From assembly GCA_003609755.1 (NCBI GenBank), contig AP017991.1, positions 4,141,001 through 4,205,000 on the forward strand: a DNA stretch of 64,000 nucleotides, given 5' to 3'. The notes under the pieces are model-generated. The model did no database searches. It worked only from the letters and a program-made list of their open reading frames with translations, and was not told where the DNA came from. The stretch is from Planktothrix agardhii NIES-204 (GTDB lineage: Bacteria; Cyanobacteriota; Cyanobacteriia; Cyanobacteriales; Microcoleaceae). Shown here piece after piece: positions 43,489 to 55,840 of the stretch. The number at the start of each line of letters is the position of its first letter. The stretch's first letter is position 1. A program made the position numbers and the translations under genes.

Positions 43489-43711
43489 GAGGGCTGAGAA
43501 AAAAGCGGGTTTTCCTGTTTTCAAATCGGGTGAAGCATGGGATTAGATCATTAATAGCTGATTGAAGGGAATTAGGAAATCTAACCCCTATTAAACCCCA
43601 AAATTGAGGAAATTTTTGATTCTATTCCCTATTCCCTAAATACCAAGAATTCAAAATTTCCGATTAAAAATAGGTTCATGACATAGCTGTTGATTGTTGG
43701 ATTGTCCCAAT
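43489..43711. other. Intergenic spacer between FHA genes
   Basis: Non-coding DNA with two TTCCCTA heptamers at 43622-43638. No ORF or RNA is recognised. Confidence 0.4.
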
Positions 43712-44209
43712 GTGATTAGACTAACGTTATTACATCCTCTCCAATCTATTCCTGTCCGCAGTTGGGTATTTGACAAGGACAATATGATTCGGATTGGGCG
43801 ATCGCTCAAGAATGATGTTGTCCTCTATAGTGCGGTCGTTTCCCGTCATCATGTCGAGATTTGTCGTGTTGGAAAAAATTGGCTGGTCGTAAATCTAGGA
43901 ACCAATGGAACCTATATCAATGGACAGGCGGTTAAACAAATTCTTTTAGTAGATGGACAGGTGATTCACTTGGCAATCTCTGGCCCTAGAATACTCTTAA
44001 ATATTTTACCCGATCCGACGGAAATGGTATTAAATGGAGGAATCGACCTCAATCGACCGGAACAGCAGAAGGAAGTAGAAACCCTATATTCTGGGGAAGT
44101 TAGGTCTTATGAATCTACTGCTGAACCTCTATTTTCCCATCCCAACGATGAGATAACCAAGGTTGATAAGTATAAACACTTGAAACTTCCTACCAATCAT
44201 TCGGTTTAA
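43712..44209 (+). CDS. FHA-domain protein
   Basis: A 165-residue protein dominated by one FHA domain: IRIGRSLKNDVVL, SRHHVEI and LGTNGTYING are the phosphothreonine-binding landmarks. I start at GTG 43712 (IRLTLLHPLQSIPVRSW) because that is the usual N-terminus of this cyanobacterial type; a TTG at 43694 would add six residues. The 3' end overlaps the convergent membrane-protein gene by 20 bp. Confidence 0.85.
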   Translation: MIRLTLLHPLQSIPVRSWVFDKDNMIRIGRSLKNDVVLYSAVVSRHHVEICRVGKNWLVVNLGTNGTYINGQAVKQILLVDGQVIHLAISGPRILLNILPDPTEMVLNGGIDLNRPEQQKEVETLYSGEVRSYESTAEPLFSHPNDEITKVDKYKHLKLPTNHSV

Positions 44210-44798
44210 TCGGATACCACAATAACCGAGTCAGTGCTATTCCATTCAACGCCGCGACAATTATCCAAACTAGGACTAACCCTAAAACGTCTCCGAGAAA
44301 GAAGCTTGTCCCCTGACGCATCATTCCTCCAAATATCCAACCGATGGGTAAGGCTACTCCCCAAGAGATGATACTGGCTACTATCCACCGCCAGGCGTGA
44401 AATACTTCGGTGCGTAAGACCAACCATTGTCCTAGGCTTAAACATAGTCCTAATTTCACTCCTTCTATCAACCCGTAGACAATTCTAGGGGTAAGATTTA
44501 AGGTGCGCGGAGCCACCCAACCCAAGAGTCCGAGGGGAGTTAAGGCGATGATACTGAATATGAAAACATGAACAAAAATCCATCGCCAACTTTGGGAAAT
44601 ATATTGTTTTAAAATAAACCATTGGGCTAGACTGATAATTAATCCGCCAATGGCTCCTTCTAAGGCTCCTAAATCCGGTTTTTCTCCAATTTCTATCCAA
44701 ATTAAACTAACTACAAATCCAACCAAAGTTACAAACATCCACTGTAGAATAAATACTAAATCTGTTTGTAAATCTAAATTATCACATACCCATTTCAT
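44190..44798 (-). CDS. Polytopic membrane protein after thiO
   Basis: A 202-residue protein with about five membrane segments, Trp-rich, with repeated GGLIISLAQW and LCLSLGQWLVL patterns, suggesting an internal duplication of the same helix pair. Its ATG overlaps the thiO stop region by 4 bp (ATGA), so it is translated with thiO. The family is unknown. It overlaps the FHA gene convergently. Confidence 0.65.
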   Translation of the reverse strand: MKWVCDNLDLQTDLVFILQWMFVTLVGFVVSLIWIEIGEKPDLGALEGAIGGLIISLAQWFILKQYISQSWRWIFVHVFIFSIIALTPLGLLGWVAPRTLNLTPRIVYGLIEGVKLGLCLSLGQWLVLRTEVFHAWRWIVASIISWGVALPIGWIFGGMMRQGTSFFLGDVLGLVLVWIIVAALNGIALTRLLWYPIKPNDW

Positions 44799-45892
44799 AA
44801 TAATTGAAAGCGGTCGCCTTTAAAATAATTTAATAACGGATCATATTGTTGATATAATACCAAATTAGAAATTAATTGAGCCGTAATCGGAGCTAATAGA
44901 ATCCCATTGCGATAATGACCCGTTGCTAAAGTTAAGTTTTGCCAAGAACTAGGCCCTAATATTGGGCATAAATCAGGGGTTTCCGGTCGAAATCCCCACC
45001 AAAATTCCTGAATTTCAAACTCTTTTAATCCTGGGTATAATCGAATAGCTCCTGAGAGTAAATTTTCAATTCCATTCGGGGTTAAACCGGAGGTAAAACC
45101 CACCTGTTCGGATGTGGCTCCAATCACAATTAAACCATCTCGACGCGGTACAATATAAATATCTGAACCGAATAAAACCTGTTTTAAAGGTAATGGTTTA
45201 ATATTATCTGGAACCCGCACTGATAACATTTGTCCCTTTCGGGGATATACGGGAATTGATAATAATTTTCCCGACCAAGCACCCGCCGTTAAAATATAAT
45301 GATCTGCTCTAAATTTACCTTGATTTGTCTGAACTTCTGTGATAATTTGATTAGGAAAAATAACTAATTTTTCTACCGTAACTCCCTCAACTATTTTAAC
45401 CCCTAATTCCTGAGCCGCCCTTTGCAATATTTTGATTAACCCCCGACGATTATCAACTTGACCATCCTGGGGAAACCACCAACCCCCGACAATATCATCC
45501 CCTAACCCGGGTTGTTGTTGTAAAATGGCTTCGGGCTCTAACCAATAGCTGGGGGTGTCTGGAGTAGCATCTAAACTGGTACAGTGGGGACGTTCATAAA
45601 CCGGAGCCAAGATCCCACAGGGCCAATATCCCGTATCTAACCCGGTGATTTCCTCCAGTTTGCGCGTCCAGTCATTGTAAAGGGCGCGACTGCGTAAACA
45701 CAATTCTAGCATAGGGCCAGGGGGAATTTGTTCGGATTGGGGTGCTAACATTCCCGCTCCGACTAAACCCGCCGATTCTTGGACGTCCCGACTCAAAACC
45801 GTTACCGTGGCTCCTTTGCATTTTAACTCGACGGCGAGGGATAAGCCAATTAAACCGCCACCGATTAGAATAATTTCACTATGTTGTTGCAT
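44795..45892 (-). CDS. thiO: Glycine oxidase ThiO
   Basis: A 365-residue FAD-dependent glycine oxidase that supplies dehydroglycine for the thiazole of thiamine. It starts with the dinucleotide-binding IILIGGGLIGLSLAVELKCKG; WWGFRPETPDLCPILG and ATGHYRNGILLAP are typical of the DAO/ThiO family. In several cyanobacteria thiO is fused to thiG; here it is separate. The 4-bp overlap with the downstream membrane gene implies translational coupling. Confidence 0.9.
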   Translation of the reverse strand: MQQHSEIILIGGGLIGLSLAVELKCKGATVTVLSRDVQESAGLVGAGMLAPQSEQIPPGPMLELCLRSRALYNDWTRKLEEITGLDTGYWPCGILAPVYERPHCTSLDATPDTPSYWLEPEAILQQQPGLGDDIVGGWWFPQDGQVDNRRGLIKILQRAAQELGVKIVEGVTVEKLVIFPNQIITEVQTNQGKFRADHYILTAGAWSGKLLSIPVYPRKGQMLSVRVPDNIKPLPLKQVLFGSDIYIVPRRDGLIVIGATSEQVGFTSGLTPNGIENLLSGAIRLYPGLKEFEIQEFWWGFRPETPDLCPILGPSSWQNLTLATGHYRNGILLAPITAQLISNLVLYQQYDPLLNYFKGDRFQLL

Positions 45893-45971
45893 AAAATTTA
45901 AAAGTTCATCTTAGGAATTGAATCTGTTTTCTATTTTAAACTTTTAGGGTTTGTTTTTCTATAGGTTAACA

Positions 45972-46343
45972 ATGATTAAACGATTTTTTACTAATACTGT
46001 CTCCGCCCTGTGTTATTCTTTAATTGATTATCGGTTTAAATCCTCTCCAATTCCCCAGCATTTTCCTAATAATTCTGTGGTTAATTTTGTCATAAAACAA
46101 CAGAATAGAATGCCAGATTATCTGCGATTTCCCTTGTTTATATTAACATTAATTTTTGATATTTGGGGGCTGCTGCGTACAGGTTTATTCTTTCATGCTC
46201 AATCACCATCTGTGCGTCAACAGCAAATTCAAGCCTGGAAAAGTTCCCCATTGCAAATTTGTCGGGATTTGATCAGGTTTTATGAAAGTTTAGTGGTATT
46301 ATATTGGCAATCTGATCATATAAAATTCTCGAATTATATCTAA
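45972..46343 (+). CDS. Small protein preceding GMC oxidoreductase
   Basis: A 123-residue protein with conserved-looking QNRMPDYLRFPLFILTLIFD and SPLQICRDLIRFYESLVVLYW segments. Only 8 nt separate its stop from the GMC gene. It has no clear signal peptide, but the middle is hydrophobic. It may be an accessory subunit, as small proteins often accompany GMC or gluconate-dehydrogenase-like flavoproteins. I take the ATG at 45972 rather than the TTG at 45951. Confidence 0.65.
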   Translation: MIKRFFTNTVSALCYSLIDYRFKSSPIPQHFPNNSVVNFVIKQQNRMPDYLRFPLFILTLIFDIWGLLRTGLFFHAQSPSVRQQQIQAWKSSPLQICRDLIRFYESLVVLYWQSDHIKFSNYI

Positions 46344-46351
46344 TAATTATC

Positions 46352-47821
46352 ATGTCTGAATTTAACCTGATTTCCCCATCTGAATCTCCTTTAAAAGTTG
46401 AAATTGCCGTGATTGGTTCTGGCCCAGGAGGAGCGATTACCGCCTGTTTATTGGCTGAAGCTGGACGGAATGTTTTATTAATTGAAGAAGGAGCCTATTT
46501 ATCCTTAGAATCCTGTCAGCCATTTTCCGTTGAAGAAATGGTGCAAAAATATCGTAATGGCGGTATAACAGCAGCCTTTGGTCAACCTAAAATTCAATAT
46601 GTGGAAGGTAAATGTGTGGGGGGAGGAAGTGAAATTAATAGCGGATTATATCATCGGACACCCCCTAATATTTTAGCACAATGGAGTCAAGAATTTCAAG
46701 TAGAATCTTTAACAGAAGCCGATTTAATTCCACATTTTGAAGCCTGCGAACAAGCGGTTAATGTCTGTTATTTACCCGGAAAAGCTCCCACTGCTTCCTT
46801 GAAATTACACGAAGGCGCAACCCGTTTAAATTGGCAATCTTTAGAAGTTCCTCGCTGGTTTCGTTATCAAGAATTAGATGAAACCGCAATTCCTAAAGGA
46901 ACTCGACAATCCATGACGGAAACCTTTATTCCCAGAGCTTTAAAAGCTGGGTGTAAACTATTAGTAAATACTAGAATTAAAAAAATTAATCAAAGCGATA
47001 AAAACTGGGTTTTAACAGGTTATTATCAAGCGAATAATTCTGATCAACAACCGGTCAAAATTCAAGCAGAAACAGTATTTGTTTGCTGTGGTGCAATTCA
47101 AACCCCAGCGTTATTAAGAAGAAGTGGAATTAAAAATAATATTGGTAATGCTTTAAGAATGCACCCAACTGTTAAAATAATTGCTCAATTTGATCAAGAT
47201 ATTAACACCTTGGATATGGGAGTTCCCGTCCATCAAGTTAAAGAATTTTCCCCTAAATTTAGTTTTGGTTGTTCAATTAGTTCTCCCCCCTATTTATCCG
47301 TGGGAATGACTGACCATCCTAATTATACTCAAGAAGTGCAAAAAAATTGGCATAAAATGGCAATTTATTATGCTATGATTGTAGGGGAAGGTTATGGTAC
47401 AGTGAGAAATATTCCCTTTTGTCGTGATCCTTTAGTTAGTTATAAATTAACATCTCAAGACTTAAAAGACTTATCAGAAGCATTAAAAAAATTAGCCCAA
47501 TTATTATTTGAAGTAGATGCTAAAATTCTCTATCCTAGTATTTCCAATAGTTTCCTCTTGACCCATCCCAAAGATTTAGATAAAATCCCGGAACAACTTC
47601 CTATAAAACAAACTAATTTAATGACAGTTCACGTTTTTTCCTCCTGTCCAATGGGAGAAAATTTACAAAAATGTGCGGTTAATTCCTTTGGTAAAGTTCA
47701 TGGATTTAATAATTTATATATTGCTGATGCCAGTTTACTTTGTACCGCTCCTGGAGTCAATCCCCAAGGTACAATTATGGCGATCGCGCGTCGAAATGCG
47801 TTAAAATTCCTAAATCCCTAA
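46352..47821 (+). CDS. GMC-family FAD oxidoreductase
   Basis: A 489-residue flavoprotein of the glucose-methanol-choline type. FAD-binding GSGPGG is at 22-27, with VEGKCVGGGSEINSGLYHRTP and the C-terminal SSCPMGENLQ...ADASLLCTAPGVNPQGTIMA. Such enzymes oxidise alcohols, sugars or sterols. It opens the 45.9-52.9 kb cluster of epimerases, a broken glycosyltransferase and a UbiA enzyme, so a polyprenyl-linked sugar or lipid alcohol is a possible substrate (inference). Confidence 0.9.
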   Translation: MSEFNLISPSESPLKVEIAVIGSGPGGAITACLLAEAGRNVLLIEEGAYLSLESCQPFSVEEMVQKYRNGGITAAFGQPKIQYVEGKCVGGGSEINSGLYHRTPPNILAQWSQEFQVESLTEADLIPHFEACEQAVNVCYLPGKAPTASLKLHEGATRLNWQSLEVPRWFRYQELDETAIPKGTRQSMTETFIPRALKAGCKLLVNTRIKKINQSDKNWVLTGYYQANNSDQQPVKIQAETVFVCCGAIQTPALLRRSGIKNNIGNALRMHPTVKIIAQFDQDINTLDMGVPVHQVKEFSPKFSFGCSISSPPYLSVGMTDHPNYTQEVQKNWHKMAIYYAMIVGEGYGTVRNIPFCRDPLVSYKLTSQDLKDLSEALKKLAQLLFEVDAKILYPSISNSFLLTHPKDLDKIPEQLPIKQTNLMTVHVFSSCPMGENLQKCAVNSFGKVHGFNNLYIADASLLCTAPGVNPQGTIMAIARRNALKFLNP

Positions 47822-47900
47822 GTTGTTGCGCTTAAGCGCATCTTATCAACATAAGATGGTGCTAAAGCACAACAACTGTAATTGTGCTGAAGCACAACAA
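47822..47900. repeat. REP-like hairpin (GTTGTTGCGCTT family), copy 2
   Basis: An imperfect long stem (47822-47846 with 47851-47876) and a second TTGTGCT/AGCACAA hairpin (47882-47897). The core GTTGTTG.GCTT.AGC.CATCTTA is shared with 5046-5095. It lies between two cluster genes and may soften read-through or stabilise mRNA. Confidence 0.7.
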
Positions 47901-47911
47901 CAAATAAAATT

Positions 47912-48979
47912 ATGATAGAATTCAACACAAATTTAGTTTTAATAACTGGTGCATTAGGTTGGTTAGGAATTAATTTAGTCGAATCTTTAGTCAAAGGATT
48001 AGCAGATTTTGAACCCCTAAGTCAACCTCAAAATAATTTAAAAATTCGCTGTTTAATTTTACCAGATCAAAACCCAAAAGTATTAAATAAAATATCAGAT
48101 CAGATTGAAATTTATCAAGGAGATTTAAGAAATCCCCAAGATTGCGATCGCTTTTGTGAAAATGCCGAAAATGCTATTTTATTTCATACCGCCGGAATTA
48201 TTCATCCTCAAAAAGTTTCTGACTTTTATCAAATTAATGTCGAAGGAACAAAAAATCTCTTAAATTCTGCGGTTTCTGCTAAGATAAAACGAGCCATTAT
48301 TGTATCTTCAAATTCTCCCTGTGGTTGTAATCCCCATCCCGATCATTTATTTGATGAAACCTCACCCTATCATCCCTATATGAACTATGGCCGCTCAAAA
48401 ATGTTAATGGAATTAGCCGTAAATAGCTATCAGCAACAGGGTAAAATTGAAACAGTTATTATTCGTCCTCCTTGGTTTTATGGCCCCCATCAACCCCAAC
48501 GTCAAACCCTATTTTTTAAGATGATTAGAGATGGGAAAGGGCCAATTGTTGGAGATGGGAATAATTTACGATCTATGGCCTATGTGGATAATATTTGTCA
48601 AGGATTGATATTAGCAGCTATCACCGAAAAAGCTAACGGAGAAACCTACTGGATAGCCGATGAACAACCCTACTCAATGAATGATATTATTAATACAATC
48701 GAACATTTATTGGAAACAGAATTTCAGCAATCCTGCACCCATAAACGCTTAAAATTACCAGGGTTAGCCAGTGAAATTGCTTTAGTTGTTGATGGAACAT
48801 TACAAAGTTTAGGATTTTATCATCAAAAAATTCATGTTCTCTCAGAAATGAATAAAACTATTGCTTGCTCTATTGCGAAAGCTCAACGCGAATTAGGTTA
48901 TAATCCGACAATTGCTTTAGAAGAAGGAATGCGAAGAAGTTTAAAATGGATCTTTGAGAATTATGGGGGATTAGATTAA
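47912..48979 (+). CDS. NAD-dependent epimerase/dehydratase, first copy
   Basis: A 355-residue extended SDR. The Rossmann motif is near the start (TGALGWLG at about 12-19) and the YxxxK pair is Y-GRSK (NYGRSKMLM). HTAGIIHP and PPWFYGPHQ are typical. It would reduce or epimerise a nucleotide- or lipid-linked sugar, or act as a 3-beta-hydroxysteroid-type dehydrogenase. It is only about 21% like the second SDR at 50373 by eye, so they are not a recent pair. Confidence 0.85.
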   Translation: MIEFNTNLVLITGALGWLGINLVESLVKGLADFEPLSQPQNNLKIRCLILPDQNPKVLNKISDQIEIYQGDLRNPQDCDRFCENAENAILFHTAGIIHPQKVSDFYQINVEGTKNLLNSAVSAKIKRAIIVSSNSPCGCNPHPDHLFDETSPYHPYMNYGRSKMLMELAVNSYQQQGKIETVIIRPPWFYGPHQPQRQTLFFKMIRDGKGPIVGDGNNLRSMAYVDNICQGLILAAITEKANGETYWIADEQPYSMNDIINTIEHLLETEFQQSCTHKRLKLPGLASEIALVVDGTLQSLGFYHQKIHVLSEMNKTIACSIAKAQRELGYNPTIALEEGMRRSLKWIFENYGGLD

Positions 48980-48981
48980 TT

Positions 48982-49527
48982 ATGGTTAGCCATATTGTCG
49001 TGACAGAAGGATTGGTTTTTAGAGAAGACTTTGCCCAAAATTATTTTTTATCGAATTATTTTGAAGCGGTTTTAAAACAAGTTTTAAAGCAGGTTTCTGA
49101 AAATGAAAAAGTGTATATTTCTCCAGGGAATTGTTTTGGTTGTCCAGAATCAGAAGAAGATTATGCGGCAAAATATCTCCTAAATCATCGTCCCGAACTC
49201 CAGATTTTTGTTCCTGAAAACGTTAAAGACCGCCCCTATTTGGATACTTTTGATAATGCTAGATTATTAAGAAAATGGTTAGAAAAACAGGAACAATGGC
49301 CCTTAGAAGAAGTAATTTTATATTGTAATAAACCCCATGCACTTAGGAGTAAGTTAATGTTTAAACTCTGTGGTTATAAGGTTCAACAGGTGATTACTTC
49401 TTATCCTGAACTGGCGAATCGAACAATGCCACTACGTCTTGTATTTTATCATTATTTACCTGCTCATTTACTTTACGAATGGGGAGCTTTGGTGTATGAT
49501 TTAATTAGATTTTATCAATATAAATAA
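48982..49527 (+). CDS. DUF218/YdcF-like protein
   Basis: A 181-residue protein whose central pattern (ISPGNCFGCPESEEDYAAKYLL, then NARLLRKWLE and VILYCNKPHALRSKLMF) is like the DUF218 domain of YdcF/SanA/ElyC proteins. ElyC is tied to undecaprenyl-phosphate metabolism in E. coli. No N-terminal membrane anchor is seen. It begins 2 nt after the SDR stop, so the two are co-translated. A C-terminal relic that may belong to such a protein lies at 50296-50376. Confidence 0.6.
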   Translation: MVSHIVVTEGLVFREDFAQNYFLSNYFEAVLKQVLKQVSENEKVYISPGNCFGCPESEEDYAAKYLLNHRPELQIFVPENVKDRPYLDTFDNARLLRKWLEKQEQWPLEEVILYCNKPHALRSKLMFKLCGYKVQQVITSYPELANRTMPLRLVFYHYLPAHLLYEWGALVYDLIRFYQYK

Positions 49528-49531
49528 AAAA

Positions 49532-50225
49532 ATGCTCAAACAAACTATGATTAAAAATCGGCACGGATTGGGAACTTTAATTTTATATATTCTCCTTAGT
49601 CTTATTATTTACTCGACGATTATCAATTCTTTTTTTCTGGCTGATGATTTTACCTGGGTTTATCAAATTAAAACCAGAGGAATATTTGGGGTCTGGACAA
49701 CTGCGCCCGATGTTTTTTTTAGACCAATAATTTCCATACTTTTATTTTTAGATTATCAAATTTGGGGGCTAAATCCTGTCGGCTATCATCTCACTAACAT
49801 TATTTTTCATGGATTCTGTTGCTTTTTTGTGTATTTTATTTCCTCTCAGCTATTAATACATAGTCATTTATCTACAAAACTGAGTCAATCCATTTCTATG
49901 ATTGCAGGTTTTTTTGTTTTTAGTTTTACCCAGTCATGTAGAAGCAGTTACTTGGATTTCGGGTCGTTCTGATGTAGTAGCAACTTGTTTTTTTCTAGCG
50001 GCTTTTAGTAGTTATTTACATTACAAAAATAACTCTAATAAGTTATGGATATTCAGTTCTTATATCTTATTTGTATTCGCTTTATTGTCCAAAGAATCAG
50101 TAATTATCTATCCCGGCTTAATTTTAGGCTATGAAATTTATAGATTTTTCCAAGACAAACAACCCCTTAATCAGCTTTATAATTCGATTTTAAAACTTAT
50201 CAATCTTATCAAATTAAAATACTGA
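49532..50225 (+). pseudogene. Frameshifted, truncated PMT/ArnT-type glycosyltransferase
   Basis: The first frame (from 49532) encodes a membrane helix with FFLADDFTWVY, the acidic loop of PMT-type transferases, FRPIISILLF and GYHLTNIIFH. At the T7 run 49909-49915 the frame is lost; dropping one T rejoins it to a second frame (from 49902) reading LPSHVEAVTWISGRSDVVA and LLSKESVIIYPG, which are conserved in this family. It then ends at 50225, long before the usual C-terminus. Normal members use polyprenyl-phosphate sugars. Confidence 0.85.
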
Positions 50226-50295
50226 ACGCAAATCCGATTGATCAAATTTTCTATTATTCTCAGGGTCAACTTCTACCTGTTTCCCACCGCAAGTT

Positions 50296-50376
50296 AAGTT
50301 AAACCTTTACGAATGGGTAACTTTTGTTTATGATACAAGGAAACAAGTGGTGTCGAGGAAAAACAGAAATTTATGA
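50296..50376 (+). pseudogene. Short coding relic ahead of second SDR
   Basis: A frame ending in TGA at 50374-50376 (overlapping the next ATG as ATGA) reads KLNLYEWVTFVYDTRKQVV. Its LYEW..VYD resembles the end of the DUF218 protein at 48982 (LLYEWGALVYD). It could be the tail of a deleted DUF218-like gene once coupled to the epimerase at 50373. Evidence is short and weak. Confidence 0.3.
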
Positions 50377-51398
50377 AGCACTTAATTACGGGAGGATCGG
50401 GATTTTTAGGCAATTTAATTGCACGACGATTATATCAAAGGGGGGAAGAAGTTAGAATTTTAGATATTTGGGAAGATCCTACCCGTCCCCCAGAGATTGA
50501 ATTTATTAACTGTGATATTTGCGATCGCAACGGGGTCGAAAAAGCCATGAAAGATATTGATATTGTCCATCATAATGTAGCTTTAGTTCCCTTAACAAAA
50601 TCCGGTAATAAATTCTGGGAAGTCAACGTAGAAGGCAGTAAAATCGCCGCCGAAGCAGCAGTAAAAGCCGGAGTTAAAAGCTTTATTCACATGAGTTCTA
50701 GCGCCCTATTTGGGGATGCTGAATGTCCGATTACAAACGATACCCCCACTAAAGCGGTTGAAATTTATGGACGGGCAAAATTAGCCGGGGAATTAGCAGT
50801 TAGAAATATCTGTGATCAAACTGGTTTACCATTAATTGTCATTCGTCCCCGAACTATTTTAGGAGAAGGAAGATTAGGAATTTTTCAGATATTATTTGAA
50901 TGGATTCAAGAAGGAAAAAACGTTTATGTGATTGGGAGTGGTGACGTTCAATTTCAATTTGTCCATGCCCATGATTTGATGGACGCCTATCTTTTAGCTC
51001 TGGATTTAGGTCAACCAGGGATCTATAATGTGGGAAGCGATCGCTTTGGTACATTACGAGAAGGATTAGAACATTTAATTGATTATGCAGGAACAGATTC
51101 TCAGGTTAAAAGTTTACCTACAGGATTAACAATTGGCAGCTTACAACTATTAGACTGGATGGGATTAAGTCCCCTCGCTCCTTGGCATTATTTAACCTAT
51201 CATAAAGAATTTTATTTTGATGTCGATCCTCTGCTAAAATTAGGCTGGAAACCCAAATATTCCAATGATGAAATGTTCCGAGAAAGTTATGATTGGTTCA
51301 AAAACAACTATAATCAACTACAAGCGGAAAAAGCCGGATCTGCCCATCGCCGCCCCGTGAAAGAAAAACTACTCTGGGTATTAAAACAACTATCTTAA
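50373..51398 (+). CDS. NAD-dependent epimerase/dehydratase, second copy
   Basis: A 341-residue extended SDR with TGGSGFLGNLIARRL at 6-20, the active-site SSSALFGDAE and YGRAKLAGE (YxxxK). Such proteins include nucleotide-sugar epimerases and hopanoid-associated HpnA. It is followed by the small transporter at 51408 after 9 nt, and the UbiA gene comes next, so these three likely share a transcript. Confidence 0.88.
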   Translation: MKHLITGGSGFLGNLIARRLYQRGEEVRILDIWEDPTRPPEIEFINCDICDRNGVEKAMKDIDIVHHNVALVPLTKSGNKFWEVNVEGSKIAAEAAVKAGVKSFIHMSSSALFGDAECPITNDTPTKAVEIYGRAKLAGELAVRNICDQTGLPLIVIRPRTILGEGRLGIFQILFEWIQEGKNVYVIGSGDVQFQFVHAHDLMDAYLLALDLGQPGIYNVGSDRFGTLREGLEHLIDYAGTDSQVKSLPTGLTIGSLQLLDWMGLSPLAPWHYLTYHKEFYFDVDPLLKLGWKPKYSNDEMFRESYDWFKNNYNQLQAEKAGSAHRRPVKEKLLWVLKQLS

Positions 51399-51407
51399 TT
51401 ATACACT

Positions 51408-51770
51408 GTGAATAACATTAACTCAATCAACTGGATTTCCTGGAGTTTAGTTTTAATCGCCGCTATTAATAGTGGAATCGGTAACTTATTACTAAAAAAA
51501 TCTCGAATAGAAGCTGCCGATCCGGGTTTATTAACCCTGTTATTATCTCCTTGGTTTCTGGCAGCAATTTTAGTCTATGGAATTAATTTAATTGTTTTTG
51601 CTAAAGCTCTTGATAGTTTACCTGTTTCTGTTGCTTATCCAGTGTTTGCTGCCATTGGTTTTAGCTTAGTTGCCTTGATGGGAAACCTATTTTTAGGAGA
51701 GCGTTTTGGATTAAATCAAATCATAGGATTAAGTTTAATTATTGCTGGAATTATTATTATGTCTCGTTAA
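51408..51770 (+). CDS. SMR/EamA-type small transporter
   Basis: A 120-residue protein with four membrane helices (about 8-30, 45-63, 70-90, 98-118), the size and pattern (SLPVSVAYPVFAAIGFSLVAL, GERFGLNQIIGL) of SMR or ArnE/ArnF-like half-transporters. ArnE/F flip undecaprenyl-phosphate-aminoarabinose, which fits the neighbouring genes. It starts with GTG at 51408. The exact substrate is inference. Confidence 0.72.
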   Translation: MNNINSINWISWSLVLIAAINSGIGNLLLKKSRIEAADPGLLTLLLSPWFLAAILVYGINLIVFAKALDSLPVSVAYPVFAAIGFSLVALMGNLFLGERFGLNQIIGLSLIIAGIIIMSR

Positions 51771-51798
51771 AATATTAACATTTTTTTAGGAAATTGCA

Positions 51799-52884
51799 AT
51801 GATTATGGAAAAACCAGATCAAGACCATTATTTGGGTGATTCTAAATCTATATTAGAAACCAATGATAATTCAACTGATCCCGTATTTGTAGCCGTTAAA
51901 TCCTCAAATTTGCCCCCCCTAATTAAACTTCTTCGTCCCCACCAATGGACAAAAAATCTATTTTGTTTGGCGGGACTTTTATTTGGGGGGAGACTATTAG
52001 AACCCCAGTCTATTCTATTATCAATATTAACGGTGATTTTTTTCTCGGCTATGGCTTCGGCAATTTATATTTTTAATGATATTCAAGATCGCGAACGCGA
52101 TCGCCAGCATCCGAAAAAAAAGTATCGTCCGATTGCCAGTCGTCAAGTTTCTATTAAAACCGGATTAGCGATCGCATTCTGTTTAATAACGGTTTCCCTT
52201 CTAGGTGCTTATAGCTTAGGAATAGCCACATTTATTTGTGTTTTACTATATGCTATTAACAATATTATTTATTCTCTAAAACTCAAAAATTTACCCCTAC
52301 TTGATGTTAGTTGTATTGCTTTTGGTTTTGTTCTCAGACTGTTAGCAGGAATTTATGCTTTAGGAGATATGCCGACGGCTTGGATTGTTTTATGTACCTT
52401 TTTCCTAACTTTATTTTTAGGCTTTTCTAAACGACGTTCGGAATTATTATCCTTGTTACATCTTCAAAATAATCAAGAGACTTTTTATTCTGAAACATCC
52501 CTACAACCCGATCTAAAATCACCTAACTCAGAACCTTCTTATTTAGAGTTATTCTATCAACGGGGAAGCAAAAATCAACAGCGTCCAGTTCTCTCCCAAT
52601 ATACCTTACCCTATTTAGATTCTCTCCTAAATAGCACCGCAACTATGACGATTATGTGCTATGCTTTGTTCACAATCCAATCGGGTAAAAATCCCTCTTT
52701 AGTGATTACGGTTCCCATTGTTTATTATGCGGTGATGCACTACAAATGGTTAGTGACGGTTTTAGCCGATGGGGAAGAACCCAGCCGAATTTTAATTCAA
52801 GATCCGACAATTAAATTAAGTTTGATAATCTGGCTAATTTTTTATTTAGTAATTTTGTATTTTAATATTCATTTATTTGATTAA
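51799..52884 (+). CDS. UbiA-type prenyltransferase, decaprenyl-phosphate phosphoribosyltransferase-like
   Basis: A 361-residue membrane UbiA-superfamily enzyme. The core LRPHQWTKNLFCLAGLLFGG and YIFNDIQDRERDRQHPKKKYRPIASRQ hold the NDxxDxxxD metal motif; TKN and the HPKK(x)RPIA box match DPPR synthases, which join PRPP to decaprenyl-phosphate. A second cluster SKRRSELLSL is typical. If correct, it starts a polyprenyl-phosphate-ribose pathway. The long soluble insert near 225-260 is unusual. Confidence 0.85.
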   Translation: MIMEKPDQDHYLGDSKSILETNDNSTDPVFVAVKSSNLPPLIKLLRPHQWTKNLFCLAGLLFGGRLLEPQSILLSILTVIFFSAMASAIYIFNDIQDRERDRQHPKKKYRPIASRQVSIKTGLAIAFCLITVSLLGAYSLGIATFICVLLYAINNIIYSLKLKNLPLLDVSCIAFGFVLRLLAGIYALGDMPTAWIVLCTFFLTLFLGFSKRRSELLSLLHLQNNQETFYSETSLQPDLKSPNSEPSYLELFYQRGSKNQQRPVLSQYTLPYLDSLLNSTATMTIMCYALFTIQSGKNPSLVITVPIVYYAVMHYKWLVTVLADGEEPSRILIQDPTIKLSLIIWLIFYLVILYFNIHLFD

Positions 52885-53044: not shown

Positions 53045-55840
53045 ATGGTATCTCCCGAATCCTCATCAATGTTTTCTGATTCAACCTTAGCACCCTTCAA
53101 AACCTGGCATACCTTGAGTGCGGATCAAACTCTCCAGATCCTTGATACAGATAGTGAAACCGGGTTAACGTCAGAACAAGTGATTGGGCGTCAACAACAG
53201 TATGGTCTGAATGAATTAAAAGAAGTTCCTGGTCGCAGTACCTTGGAAATTTTATGGGATCAGTTCACTAATATTATGCTGGTGATGCTGATTGCTGTAG
53301 CCATTGTATCCGCCGTGATTGATTTTCGCAAAGGCAACTTCCCCAAGGACGCCGTTGCCATTTTTTCAATTGTGATTTTGAATGGGATGTTGGGCTATTT
53401 CCAAGAAAGCCGGGCAGAACAGGCTCTAGCTGCCCTGAAACGAATGTCTTCCCCTAGAGTTCGGGTGGTGCGGGACGGCAAAATGCAAGAACTGGCAGCG
53501 AAAGAACTGGTTCCGGGGGATATCATGTTTCTGGAGGCTGGAGTCCAAATTCCGACCGATGGTCGCCTAGTTGAAGCCCAAAATTTGCAGGTGCGTGAGG
53601 CGGCCTTAACCGGGGAAGCAGAAGCGGTAATTAAAAAACCGAGTATGGAGTTGACCGAAGATGCTCCTCTAGGCGATCGCCTGAATATGGTATTTATGGG
53701 GACGGAAGTGATCCAGGGACGGGGACAAGTGATCGTCACCAATACCGGAATGACCACGGAACTCGGACGCATCGCCGAAATGATCCAGGGGGTAGAAACC
53801 GAACCCACGCCCCTCCAGCAACGGATGACCCAGTTAGGGAATGTGCTAGTTAGTGGGTCTTTAGCCTTGGTTGCCCTAATTGTGGTGGGTGGCGTGATCA
53901 AAACGGGCAGTTTTCATAGTTTAGAAGATTTATTAGAAGTATCCCTAAGTATGGCGGTGGCGGTAGTTCCAGAAGGTTTACCTGCGGTGGTAACAGTTAC
54001 TCTGGCTATTGGTACACAAAGAATGGTCAAACGCCATGCTTTAATTCGGAAACTCCCGGCGGTGGAAACCTTGGGTTCTGTGACGACTATTTGTTCGGAT
54101 AAAACCGGAACTCTCACCCAAAATAAAATGGTGGTGCAATCGGTTCAAACCTTTGATCAAGTGTTTCAAGTCACCGGAGAAGGGTATGATCCAGTAGGGG
54201 AATTACAACTGATAACCTCGGAACAAAATAACACAATTTCCTCGGATTCTGAAGTTTTAGAACCGATTTTAACCGCTTGTGTTTTGTGCAATGATGCTCA
54301 ATTACAACAAGATGACAATAAATGGCATATTTTGGGAGATCCCACGGAAGGGGCGTTATTATCCTTAGCTGGAAAAGTAGGTTTATTTAGAGATATTCAC
54401 AATCACAAAAATCCTCGTCTTGCTGAAATTCCTTTCTCCTCAGAACGGAAGCGGATGAGTGTTATTTGTCAACTTCAAGACCATGAAAATCCAGAATGTG
54501 TGATGTTTACTAAAGGATCACCGGAGTTGATTCTAGCTCAATGTACTTCGGTTCTTGTGGGTAATCAAAATGTTTTGTTAGCAGAAGCAGACCGTCAAAT
54601 AATTCTCGAACAAAATAATGCCATGGCTGGTAAAGGTTTACGGGTTTTAGGATTTGCCACTCGCCCTTTAACAATATTACCACCAGAAGGCGAGGAAGAA
54701 AGTGCCGAACAGGAATTAGTTTGGTTAGGATTAGTAGGAATGTTAGACGCGCCTCGTCCTGAAGTTCGAGAAGCGGTTAAACTATGTCGAGAAGCGGGGA
54801 TTCGTCCAGTAATGATTACTGGAGATCATCAATTAACTGCAAAGGTAATCGCTCAAGATTTAGGCATTGCCGAATTAGATTCTTTAAGTTTAACAGGTCA
54901 GGAATTACAGAAATTAACTCAAACGGAATTAGAACAAAAAGTTGAAGATGTGAGTGTTTACGCCCGGGTTTCTCCTGAACATAAACTACGGATTGTTCAA
55001 GCCTTACAAAAAAATGGTGAATTTGTAGCAATGACTGGGGATGGTGTTAATGATGCTCCGGCTTTGAAACAGGCAGATATTGGGATTGCGATGGGAATTA
55101 CCGGAACTGATGTTAGCAAAGAAGCCAGTGATATGATTTTATTGGATGATAACTTTGCTACCATTGTCGCCGCTACAGAAGAAGGGCGAGTTGTTTATAG
55201 TAATATTCGCCGTTTTATTAAATATATTCTCGGTAGTAATATTGGGGAAGTGTTAGTGATTGCGGCTTCTCCCCTTTTAGGCGGGGGTGTGCCGTTAATC
55301 CCGTTACAAATTTTATGGATGAACCTTGTTACCGATGGTTTACCCGCTTTAGCATTAGCAATGGAACCTGCTGAACCTGCGGTAATGCAACGTCCACCTT
55401 ATAATCCCCGCGAAAGTATTTTTGCGCGAGGATTAGGGTTATATATGGTGAGAATTGGGATTGTTTTTGCCATTTTAACAATTGTTTTGATGGTTTGGGC
55501 TTACAACTATACTCAAGGCACTCCTAACCCTGAACGTTGGAAAACCATGGTGTTTACAACCTTATGTTTAGCCCAAATGGGTCATGCTTTAGCAGTTCGT
55601 TCCGATACTCAATTGACCATCCAAATGAATCCTAAAACCAACCCCTATTTGTGGGGTGCTGTTGCATTAACTACGGTTCTTCAGTTACTATTAATTTATT
55701 TTCCTCCCTTGAGAAATTTCTTTGGAACTCACTTTTTAAGCTTCACTGAATTATCAATTTGTTTAGGTTTTAGTGCATTAATGTTTATCTGGATTGAAAT
55801 GGAAAAAGTGGTTTATAAGTGGTTTATCAATCGTCGCTAA
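53045..55840 (+). CDS. P2A-type calcium-transporting ATPase
   Basis: A 931-residue P-type ATPase. The N-terminal cation-ATPase domain, the phosphorylation site [13 protein letters not shown] (Asp at about 352), the PEGLP of helix 4 and the hinge [11 protein letters not shown] are intact. The layout resembles PacL-type Ca2+ ATPases. It lies after the cluster with a 160-nt gap holding no gene, so is probably independent. Confidence 0.93.

Follow-up and report, generated by a model that had tools for sequence, protein, structure and literature searches.

A gene row of Planktothrix agardhii predicted to build a lipid-linked pentose with a GMC flavoprotein and two extended SDR proteins

What do eight consecutive genes of the bloom-forming cyanobacterium Planktothrix agardhii NIES-204 make together? 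They occupy positions 45972 to 52884 of a 64,000-nucleotide stretch of its genome (contig AP017991.1, positions 4,141,001 to 4,205,000; the whole stretch is called the window here), and a first-pass annotation had proposed that they make and export a sugar carried on polyprenyl phosphate, in the manner of mycobacterial decaprenyl-phosphoarabinose. Comparison of the encoded proteins and of their relatives in other genomes partly supports this idea, which appears right in outline: the cluster is predicted, with fair probability, to make, modify and export a pentose on polyprenyl phosphate, but the kinship claimed for the oxidase is wrong, and the transferase and flippase are unproven. All eight genes are present in the claimed order and on one strand:

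45972..46343, + strand: small protein, 123 residues from the ATG at 45972 (open reading frame 45951-46343, from the TTG at 45951); probably anchors the GMC protein to the membrane
46352..47821, + strand: GMC flavoprotein, 489 residues, PF00732 and PF05199 above cut-off; probable oxidase or dehydrogenase of a lipid-linked pentose
47912..48979, + strand: SDR1, an extended SDR of 355 residues (PF01370, PF01073); probable reductase or epimerase partner of the GMC protein
48982..49527, + strand: DUF218 protein of ElyC/SanA/YdcF type, 181 residues (PF02698); putative accessory protein
49532..50225, + strand: remnant of a polytopic membrane protein, a candidate transferase, in two pieces (49532-49972 and 49902-50225)
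50373..51398, + strand: SDR2, an extended SDR of 341 residues (PF01370, 145 bits); putative second pentose-modifying enzyme
51408..51770, + strand: SMR transporter, 120 residues (PF00893, 49.7 bits); candidate flippase
51799..52884, + strand: predicted polyprenyl-phosphate phosphoribosyltransferase of the UbiA family, 361 residues (NF008977, PDB match 8j8j, tree)

The intergenic gaps along the row, 5' to 3', are 8, 90, 2, 4, 147, 9 and 28 nucleotides, and the tight spacing described earlier is correct for several joints (2, 4, 8, 9 and 28 among the seven).

The UbiA protein

The last gene gives the clearest indication of the chemistry, as its product is well supported as an enzyme of the decaprenyl-phosphate phosphoribosyl synthase (DPPRS) type, the activity being predicted. 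The protein narrowly passes NF008977, the model for decaprenyl-phosphate phosphoribosyltransferase (236 bits against a cut-off of 234), and misses NF008978, a second model of the same name (187 bits against 207). In the PDB, the mycobacterial enzyme 8j8j matches best (3.5e-28), followed at 1.4e-6 by a general prenyltransferase, and in the 8j8j alignment the window protein retains Lys28, Tyr70, Asn73, Asp77 and Lys191 of Rv3806c, here K52, Y90, N93, D97 and K211. Five of the seven substrate-contact residues are identical to those of Rv3806c, Gln135 being replaced by Asn and Tyr157 by Phe. According to excerpts of PMC10994848, the residues of Rv3806c contact phosphoribosyl pyrophosphate (PRPP) and the lipid phosphate, and Phe stands in place of Tyr157 in some mycobacteria as well. 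The window protein also carries NDIQDRERDRQHPKKKYRP and KRRSEL.

Grouping of this protein with chlorophyll, quinone or haem enzymes had been named in advance as one result that would speak against the idea. The genome encodes six UbiA proteins, the window one included; a quick tree places the other five on one side (support 94, short of the starred level) and joins the window protein, at 99, to cluster UbiA proteins from Oscillatoriales, Arthrospira and Oscillatoria. A role as a chlorophyll, quinone or haem enzyme was rejected on the NCBIfam models and the tree, and the DPPRS type is borne out by the NF008977 score, the PDB match and the separation from the other UbiA proteins of the genome.

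Among related cluster UbiA proteins, 25 of 49 have an N-terminal HAD motif (PF12710 in the protein of locus L098), which the window UbiA lacks. In Citrobacter ORF15, the HAD domain strips the 5'-phosphate, according to excerpts of PMC11127046. Two other cyanobacteria (L063 and L072) have a related UbiA gene that adjoins homologues of DprE1 and DprE2, these being 41-49% identical to the Peribacillus ones, and the L063 UbiA passes NF008978 with 257 bits.

Recurrence of the families across bacteria

Whether the eight genes function jointly was approached through the neighbourhoods of GMC relatives. One genome per species was scanned with the GMC alignment, which gave 494 relatives, and the best 80 loci by GMC similarity were analysed. 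At an E value of 1e-6, SDR2 is matched in 65 of these loci, SDR1 in 62, UbiA in 53, SMR in 27 and DUF218 in 11. At least two of SDR1, SDR2 and UbiA are found at 100 bits in 61 of the 80, which represent 11 named phyla; among the 46 loci with at least 8 kb on both sides of the GMC gene, 31 have all three, eight have two, six have one and a single locus has none. The 41 loci counted for the small protein combine two sequence families, of 26 and 13 loci, and the rhizobial family is tied to that of the window by place and size only. Nine of the 80 loci were left out of the operon table, as a longer shadow frame had displaced the GMC frame.

Sets that are split remain in the genome. Four Verrucomicrobia have GMC and UbiA genes with no adjacent SDR, and all four hold SDR1 (73-78% identity) and SDR2 (46-68%) elsewhere, less than 3 kb apart in three of them; likewise, 11 of the 16 genomes without a nearby UbiA gene hold one elsewhere. 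The claim of joint function is supported by this retention and by the recurrence of the same families around the nearest GMC relatives, in most of which the genes stand together and are not scattered, scattering being the other result named beforehand as speaking against the idea. As a control, 12 cyanobacterial UbiA loci were compared at 1e-8: none of them matched GMC or SDR1, and two had an SDR2 match of 30-32% identity.

The gene row is not a cyanobacterial oddity and recurs in 11 named phyla. Its earlier description as a cyanobacterial and perhaps undescribed pathway is therefore too narrow in its first part, because the row extends to many phyla and has a rare, patchy occurrence in cyanobacteria; as to the second part, no description of the cluster was found in the open-licence literature searched, where the names of the rhizobial genes led to unrelated papers. 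GMC proteins of at least 86% identity occur in four of 386 cyanobacterial genomes, all of the genus of the window, and seven more have only relatives of 26-30%. In one congener (G157), the small protein and GMC genes are on one contig (L055) and SDR1, DUF218, SDR2, SMR and UbiA on another (L056).

Outside cyanobacteria, when a plasmid collection was searched by tblastn with the GMC protein, the top nine records were symbiosis or other large plasmids from Sinorhizobium, Rhizobium and Mesorhizobium, with 37-39% identity. Their GMC neighbourhoods repeat the series SDR, SMR, small protein, GMC, membrane protein, SDR and a UbiA protein with an N-terminal HAD region, and some are partly broken up. 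By BLASTP, these plasmid proteins are 48-50% (SDR1), 42-44% (SDR2), 46-50% (SMR), 38-39% (GMC) and 27-29% (UbiA) identical to those of the window, and the rhizobial small proteins have no match to the window's.

Oxidoreductases, export and the proposed pathway

The flavoprotein had been likened to the FAD oxidase of mycobacteria, DprE1, and a kinship of the two does not hold. Both GMC domains of the protein are above cut-off, and all 25 of 25 aligned relatives retain the FAD-binding glycines together with the putative catalytic residues His427 and Asn470, a role that such residues have in choline oxidase and cholesterol oxidase. Descent from DprE1 is rejected on these domains and on the genome of the strain itself, which has no DprE1 and offers only weak matches to a DprE1-like protein, the best at 5.6e-6. 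Because the FAD enzyme is a GMC protein with a small protein of its own, the analogy to DprE1 is one of role and not of descent. There is no DprE1 match at 1e-30 in 40 of 49 GMC genomes; in cyanobacteria, DprE1 is found in 15 of 386 genomes, and none of the four GMC genomes, all of one genus, is among them. In the GMC tree, the window protein is with Planktothrix, and it forms one set with 14 cyanobacterial and two Bacillota rows (99), which fits transfer between phyla but is not proof of it.

The small protein has no Pfam family and no credible PDB match, and its alignment gave chance-level matches only against PDB and Pfam, such as Gluconate_2-dh3 at an E value of 0.16 in one of 19 members. 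It has a single hydrophobic stretch (19-residue mean 1.77). In Verrucomicrobia, longer GMC proteins have a relative of it as their N-terminal part, and residues 1-140 of the L091, L098 and L115 proteins align with it at 38, 41 and 42%; 20 of 79 GMC proteins have at least 560 residues. It is thus probable, judging from these alignments, that the small protein tethers the GMC enzyme at the membrane, the site of a polyprenyl-linked substrate.

Both SDR proteins carry motifs of their family, namely TGALGWLG and YGRSK in SDR1 and TGGSGFLG and YGRAK in SDR2, and the YxxxK pattern used matches 58 of 62 SDR1 and 51 of 65 SDR2 family sequences, which were assigned to one or the other by best BLAST match. 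SDR1 immediately follows GMC in 39 of the 43 operons that hold both. Moreover, the pairwise identities of GMC proteins, in pairs that share ancestry and are not independent, give Spearman correlations of 0.74 with those of SDR1, 0.48 with SDR2 and 0.35 with UbiA, and the GMC-SDR1 value is still 0.71 among pairs below 80% GMC identity. GMC and SDR1 are the likeliest enzyme pair because their identities correlate best.

The fifth gene had been called a broken PMT-type glycosyltransferase. The break is real: a single intact congener protein of 543 residues (L054:10164-11795) is matched at its residues 1-127 by one piece and at 127-219 by the other, the frame being broken near 49.9 kb and the C-terminal part missing. 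The intact homologue is present in L054 and L081, an in-frame form shortened to 230 residues in the same-species genome L053, and the gene was not found in G157, L078, L079 and L080. The PMT label was rejected, since neither piece has a Pfam family and the intact copy matches no Pfam family at an E value of 0.01 and no PDB sequence at 1. Membrane-protein genes were counted in 22 of 41 operons, an overcount, as the rows of L077-L080 are genes downstream of the cluster; the L093 row is presumably another enzyme. Between GMC and SDR1, the loci L054 and L086 have a gene that encodes a membrane protein of 711-719 residues. In Scytonema (L087:2140-5370) and Brasilonema (L116), a membrane protein of 1076 residues without a Pfam match and a separate HAD protein are placed between the UbiA gene and the small protein-GMC pair.

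The kinship suggested between the SMR protein and ArnE/ArnF proved weak, with 36 bits against a cut-off of 92 for ArnE and 26.5 against 99 for ArnF, so that neither model is passed. The DUF218 protein is just above the cut-off of PF02698 (30.4 bits against 27.6) and keeps DTxxNA, PHA and YEW, which hold candidate T, H and E residues for the Thr/His/Glu triad of such proteins. As a stand-in for the HAD phosphatase it was rejected, given that it occurs with short UbiA proteins and with UbiA proteins of 487 residues (L138, L155) alike and is also missing from several short-UbiA clusters.

On this basis, a pathway of six steps is proposed. UbiA would move 5-phosphoribose from PRPP to polyprenyl phosphate, a step well supported by its family and residues. 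A phosphatase would then take off the 5'-phosphate, as the HAD domain fused to UbiA may do in about half of the related clusters; here, it would have to come from another gene. In the third step, the membrane-held GMC enzyme would oxidise one hydroxyl of the ribose on its lipid carrier, and SDR1 would reduce the resulting keto group from the opposite face. Gene context and co-variation point to such a pair, which would act by analogy with DprE1/DprE2, the enzymes that oxidise and then reduce polyprenyl-phosphate ribose at C2, but with another descent. SDR2 might perform a further epimerisation or reduction, like the extended SDR that acts on undecaprenyl-phosphate (undP) ribofuranose in Citrobacter and yields undP-xylofuranose (excerpts of PMC11127046). 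The SMR protein may flip the product, and a membrane glycosyltransferase that varies by cluster may pass the sugar to an outer acceptor; because the local candidate gene is dead in this genome, either another gene serves this last step or the step has been lost. It is suggested more tentatively, and at somewhat less than an even chance, that a membrane-tethered GMC oxidase and two extended SDRs form a third, DprE1-independent route for diversifying pentoses on polyprenyl phosphate, spread by transfer across many phyla and kept on rhizobial symbiosis plasmids. Two successive inversions could even give a furanose new to bacterial glycans, such as lyxofuranose.

Several observations weigh against this scheme. 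The strict UbiA motif is found in 34 of 45 cluster UbiA proteins, the rhizobial ones and fragments being without it, and Pfam and NCBIfam scans recognised no phosphatase gene in the window cluster. The SMR protein is below every NCBIfam SMR cut-off among the models listed. Of ten cluster membrane proteins scanned, one passed PMT_2 (L094) and one was below its cut-off (L122); among six further ones, five had no Pfam match and one had TPR repeats. Six of ten genomes searched lack SDR1, both Bacillus included, and three of the ten lack SDR2, to which it should be added that many of the contigs belong to metagenome-assembled genomes (MAGs). Moreover, DprE1-like genes are present in nine of 49 GMC genomes (two Bacillus, one gammaproteobacterial MAG and six rhizobia or bradyrhizobia), and in two of these (L097 and L100) the row consists of small protein, GMC, UbiA, DprE1-like, DprE2-like, LPG_synthase_TM and DUF212 (PAP2-like) genes without SDR1 or SDR2, although the Bacillus DprE1 and DprE2 calls themselves fall short of the NCBIfam thresholds (450 bits where 500 are required, and 153 where 250 are). 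Because these Bacillus loci pair GMC with DprE1/DprE2-like genes, GMC is not simply the DprE1 of these clusters everywhere; it is therefore tied to the same pathway yet able to act in addition to DprE1. The loci, L097:9604-16054 of Peribacillus and L100 of Metabacillus, look like a decaprenyl-phospho-arabinose-type pathway joined to the GMC family, and the rhizobial GMC row of Bradyrhizobium algeriense has DprE1-like and DprE2-like genes (L139:7-1790) some 6 kb upstream.

The same loci lend some weight to an alternative that is unlikely and still deserves attention, namely that only polyprenyl-phosphate ribose or arabinose is made, with SDR2 as a one-enzyme epimerase, and that GMC together with the small protein serves a side reaction, for example oxidation of the primary 5-hydroxyl to an unusual (oxidised, branched or L-) pentose. 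It would account for GMC beside DprE1-like and DprE2-like genes in the two Bacillus loci, for DprE1 in nine GMC genomes and for the GMC loci without SDR1, and one extended SDR is enough to convert undP-ribofuranose to undP-xylofuranose in Citrobacter (excerpts of PMC11127046). The position of SDR1 right after GMC in 39 of 43 operons and the strongest co-variation nevertheless suit an oxidase-reductase pair better. A hopanoid or sterol pathway, in which ribose would be placed on a hopanoid side chain, GMC would resemble cholesterol oxidase and the SDRs would resemble 3-beta-HSD, HpnA and sterol decarboxylases, is very improbable. The best PDB relatives of GMC are indeed cholesterol oxidases and that of SDR2 is a sterol-4-alpha-carboxylate dehydrogenase, HpnA (TIGR03466) is the best curated model for SDR2, and a squalene-hopene cyclase is encoded in the genome; however, the curated scores are all far under cut-off (97 bits for SDR2 and 78 for SDR1 against 367.65), the UbiA type uses polyprenyl phosphate, and 19 of 49 GMC genomes, including the complete chromosome of Arthrospira PCC 9108, have no squalene-hopene cyclase match at 0.001, on which the pathway was rejected as the general explanation. 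That unrelated genes merely share an envelope-glycan island by chance, as the rarity in cyanobacteria, the split set of G157 and the coming and going of SMR, DUF218 and membrane protein among loci might suggest, is scarcely credible and is largely refuted by the recurrence in 11 named phyla, the GMC-SDR1 adjacency, the co-variation and the retention of split sets, with far GMC relatives and the 12 control loci having no partners in a comparable way.

On one side the row is bounded by a ThiO-like gene in divergent orientation (44795-45892, - strand), on the other by a gene for a cation ATPase (53045-55840). The upstream region 43694-45892 contains an open reading frame that presumably encodes an FHA-like protein (43694-44209) and, on the minus strand, a membrane protein and the ThiO-like FAD oxidoreductase, neighbours that are kept beside the cluster in congeners. 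The 90-nucleotide gap between GMC and SDR1 (47822-47911) holds short repeated and inverted motifs, GCGCTTAAGCGC and AGCACAACAAC, and one 21-base piece of it occurs once in the window. A scan for promoters and terminators gave no excess over shuffled sequence (34 versus 28.7 and 6 versus 5.5).

Comparison with known systems

Lipid-linked pentofuranoses are a tuberculosis drug target and a source of surface-antigen variety. For the change of the pentose, excerpts of PMC11127046 describe only the DprE1/DprE2 pair and the single-SDR epimerase. A second flavoprotein solution across 11 named phyla, if true, would bring a new enzyme pair into the pathway, would assign a function to genes still uncharacterised on the well-studied symbiosis plasmids of rhizobia, and would imply unlooked-for surface sugars in bloom-forming Planktothrix, Verrucomicrobia and rhizobia.

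The mycobacterial decaprenyl-phospho-arabinose pathway (Rv3806c, Rv3807c, DprE1, DprE2 and Rv3789) shares with the window a UbiA enzyme of Rv3806c type, a flavoprotein followed by an SDR, and an SMR protein proposed as flippase (excerpts of PMC11127046). In contrast, the flavoprotein of the window has the GMC fold and not the FAD_binding_4/ALO domains of DprE1-like proteins, two extended SDRs replace the classical SDR, and the cluster has no gene for a DUF212/PAP2-type phosphatase. The Bacillus loci, too, encode a DprE2-like protein of the classical short-chain type (adh_short), unlike the extended SDRs of the window.

On the rhizobial plasmid pNGR234a, the genes NGR_RS31055-31085, which we take to be y4nG-y4nM, occupy about 8 kb and encode SDR, SMR, small protein, GMC, membrane protein, SDR and HAD-UbiA, with identities to the window of 50% (SDR1), 42% (SDR2), 46% (SMR), 39% (GMC) and 27% (UbiA). 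They differ in forming two divergent gene groups, in the HAD domain on UbiA, in the absence of DUF218 and in a membrane protein unrelated by BLAST. The likeness to ArnE/ArnF and ElyC/SanA is at the level of the SMR and DUF218 families only.

Excerpts of PMC11127046 present polyprenyl-phosphate ribose as a common entry point, from which arabinofuranose arises with DprE1/DprE2 homologues and xylofuranose with a single extended SDR, a MATE or SMR protein being the proposed flippase. In the three-component pentofuranose systems of Citrobacter youngae O1/O2 described there, a HAD-UbiA or UbiA synthase, a pentose-changing extended SDR, a flippase and a membrane transferase (of GT-C type, GT136) are encoded together. 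Of these parts, the window cluster has a UbiA protein of phosphoribosyltransferase type, with no phosphatase recognised beside it, and the SMR protein as candidate flippase, the transferase gene being broken and its intact homologue without a Pfam or PDB match; compared with Citrobacter, it adds GMC, the small protein and a pair of SDRs, and its flippase candidate is an SMR and not a MATE protein. Because the text of PMC11127046, in whose main part GMC occurs zero times, describes DprE1/DprE2 or a single SDR, the window cluster would be a variant of such systems with a different set of oxidoreductases.

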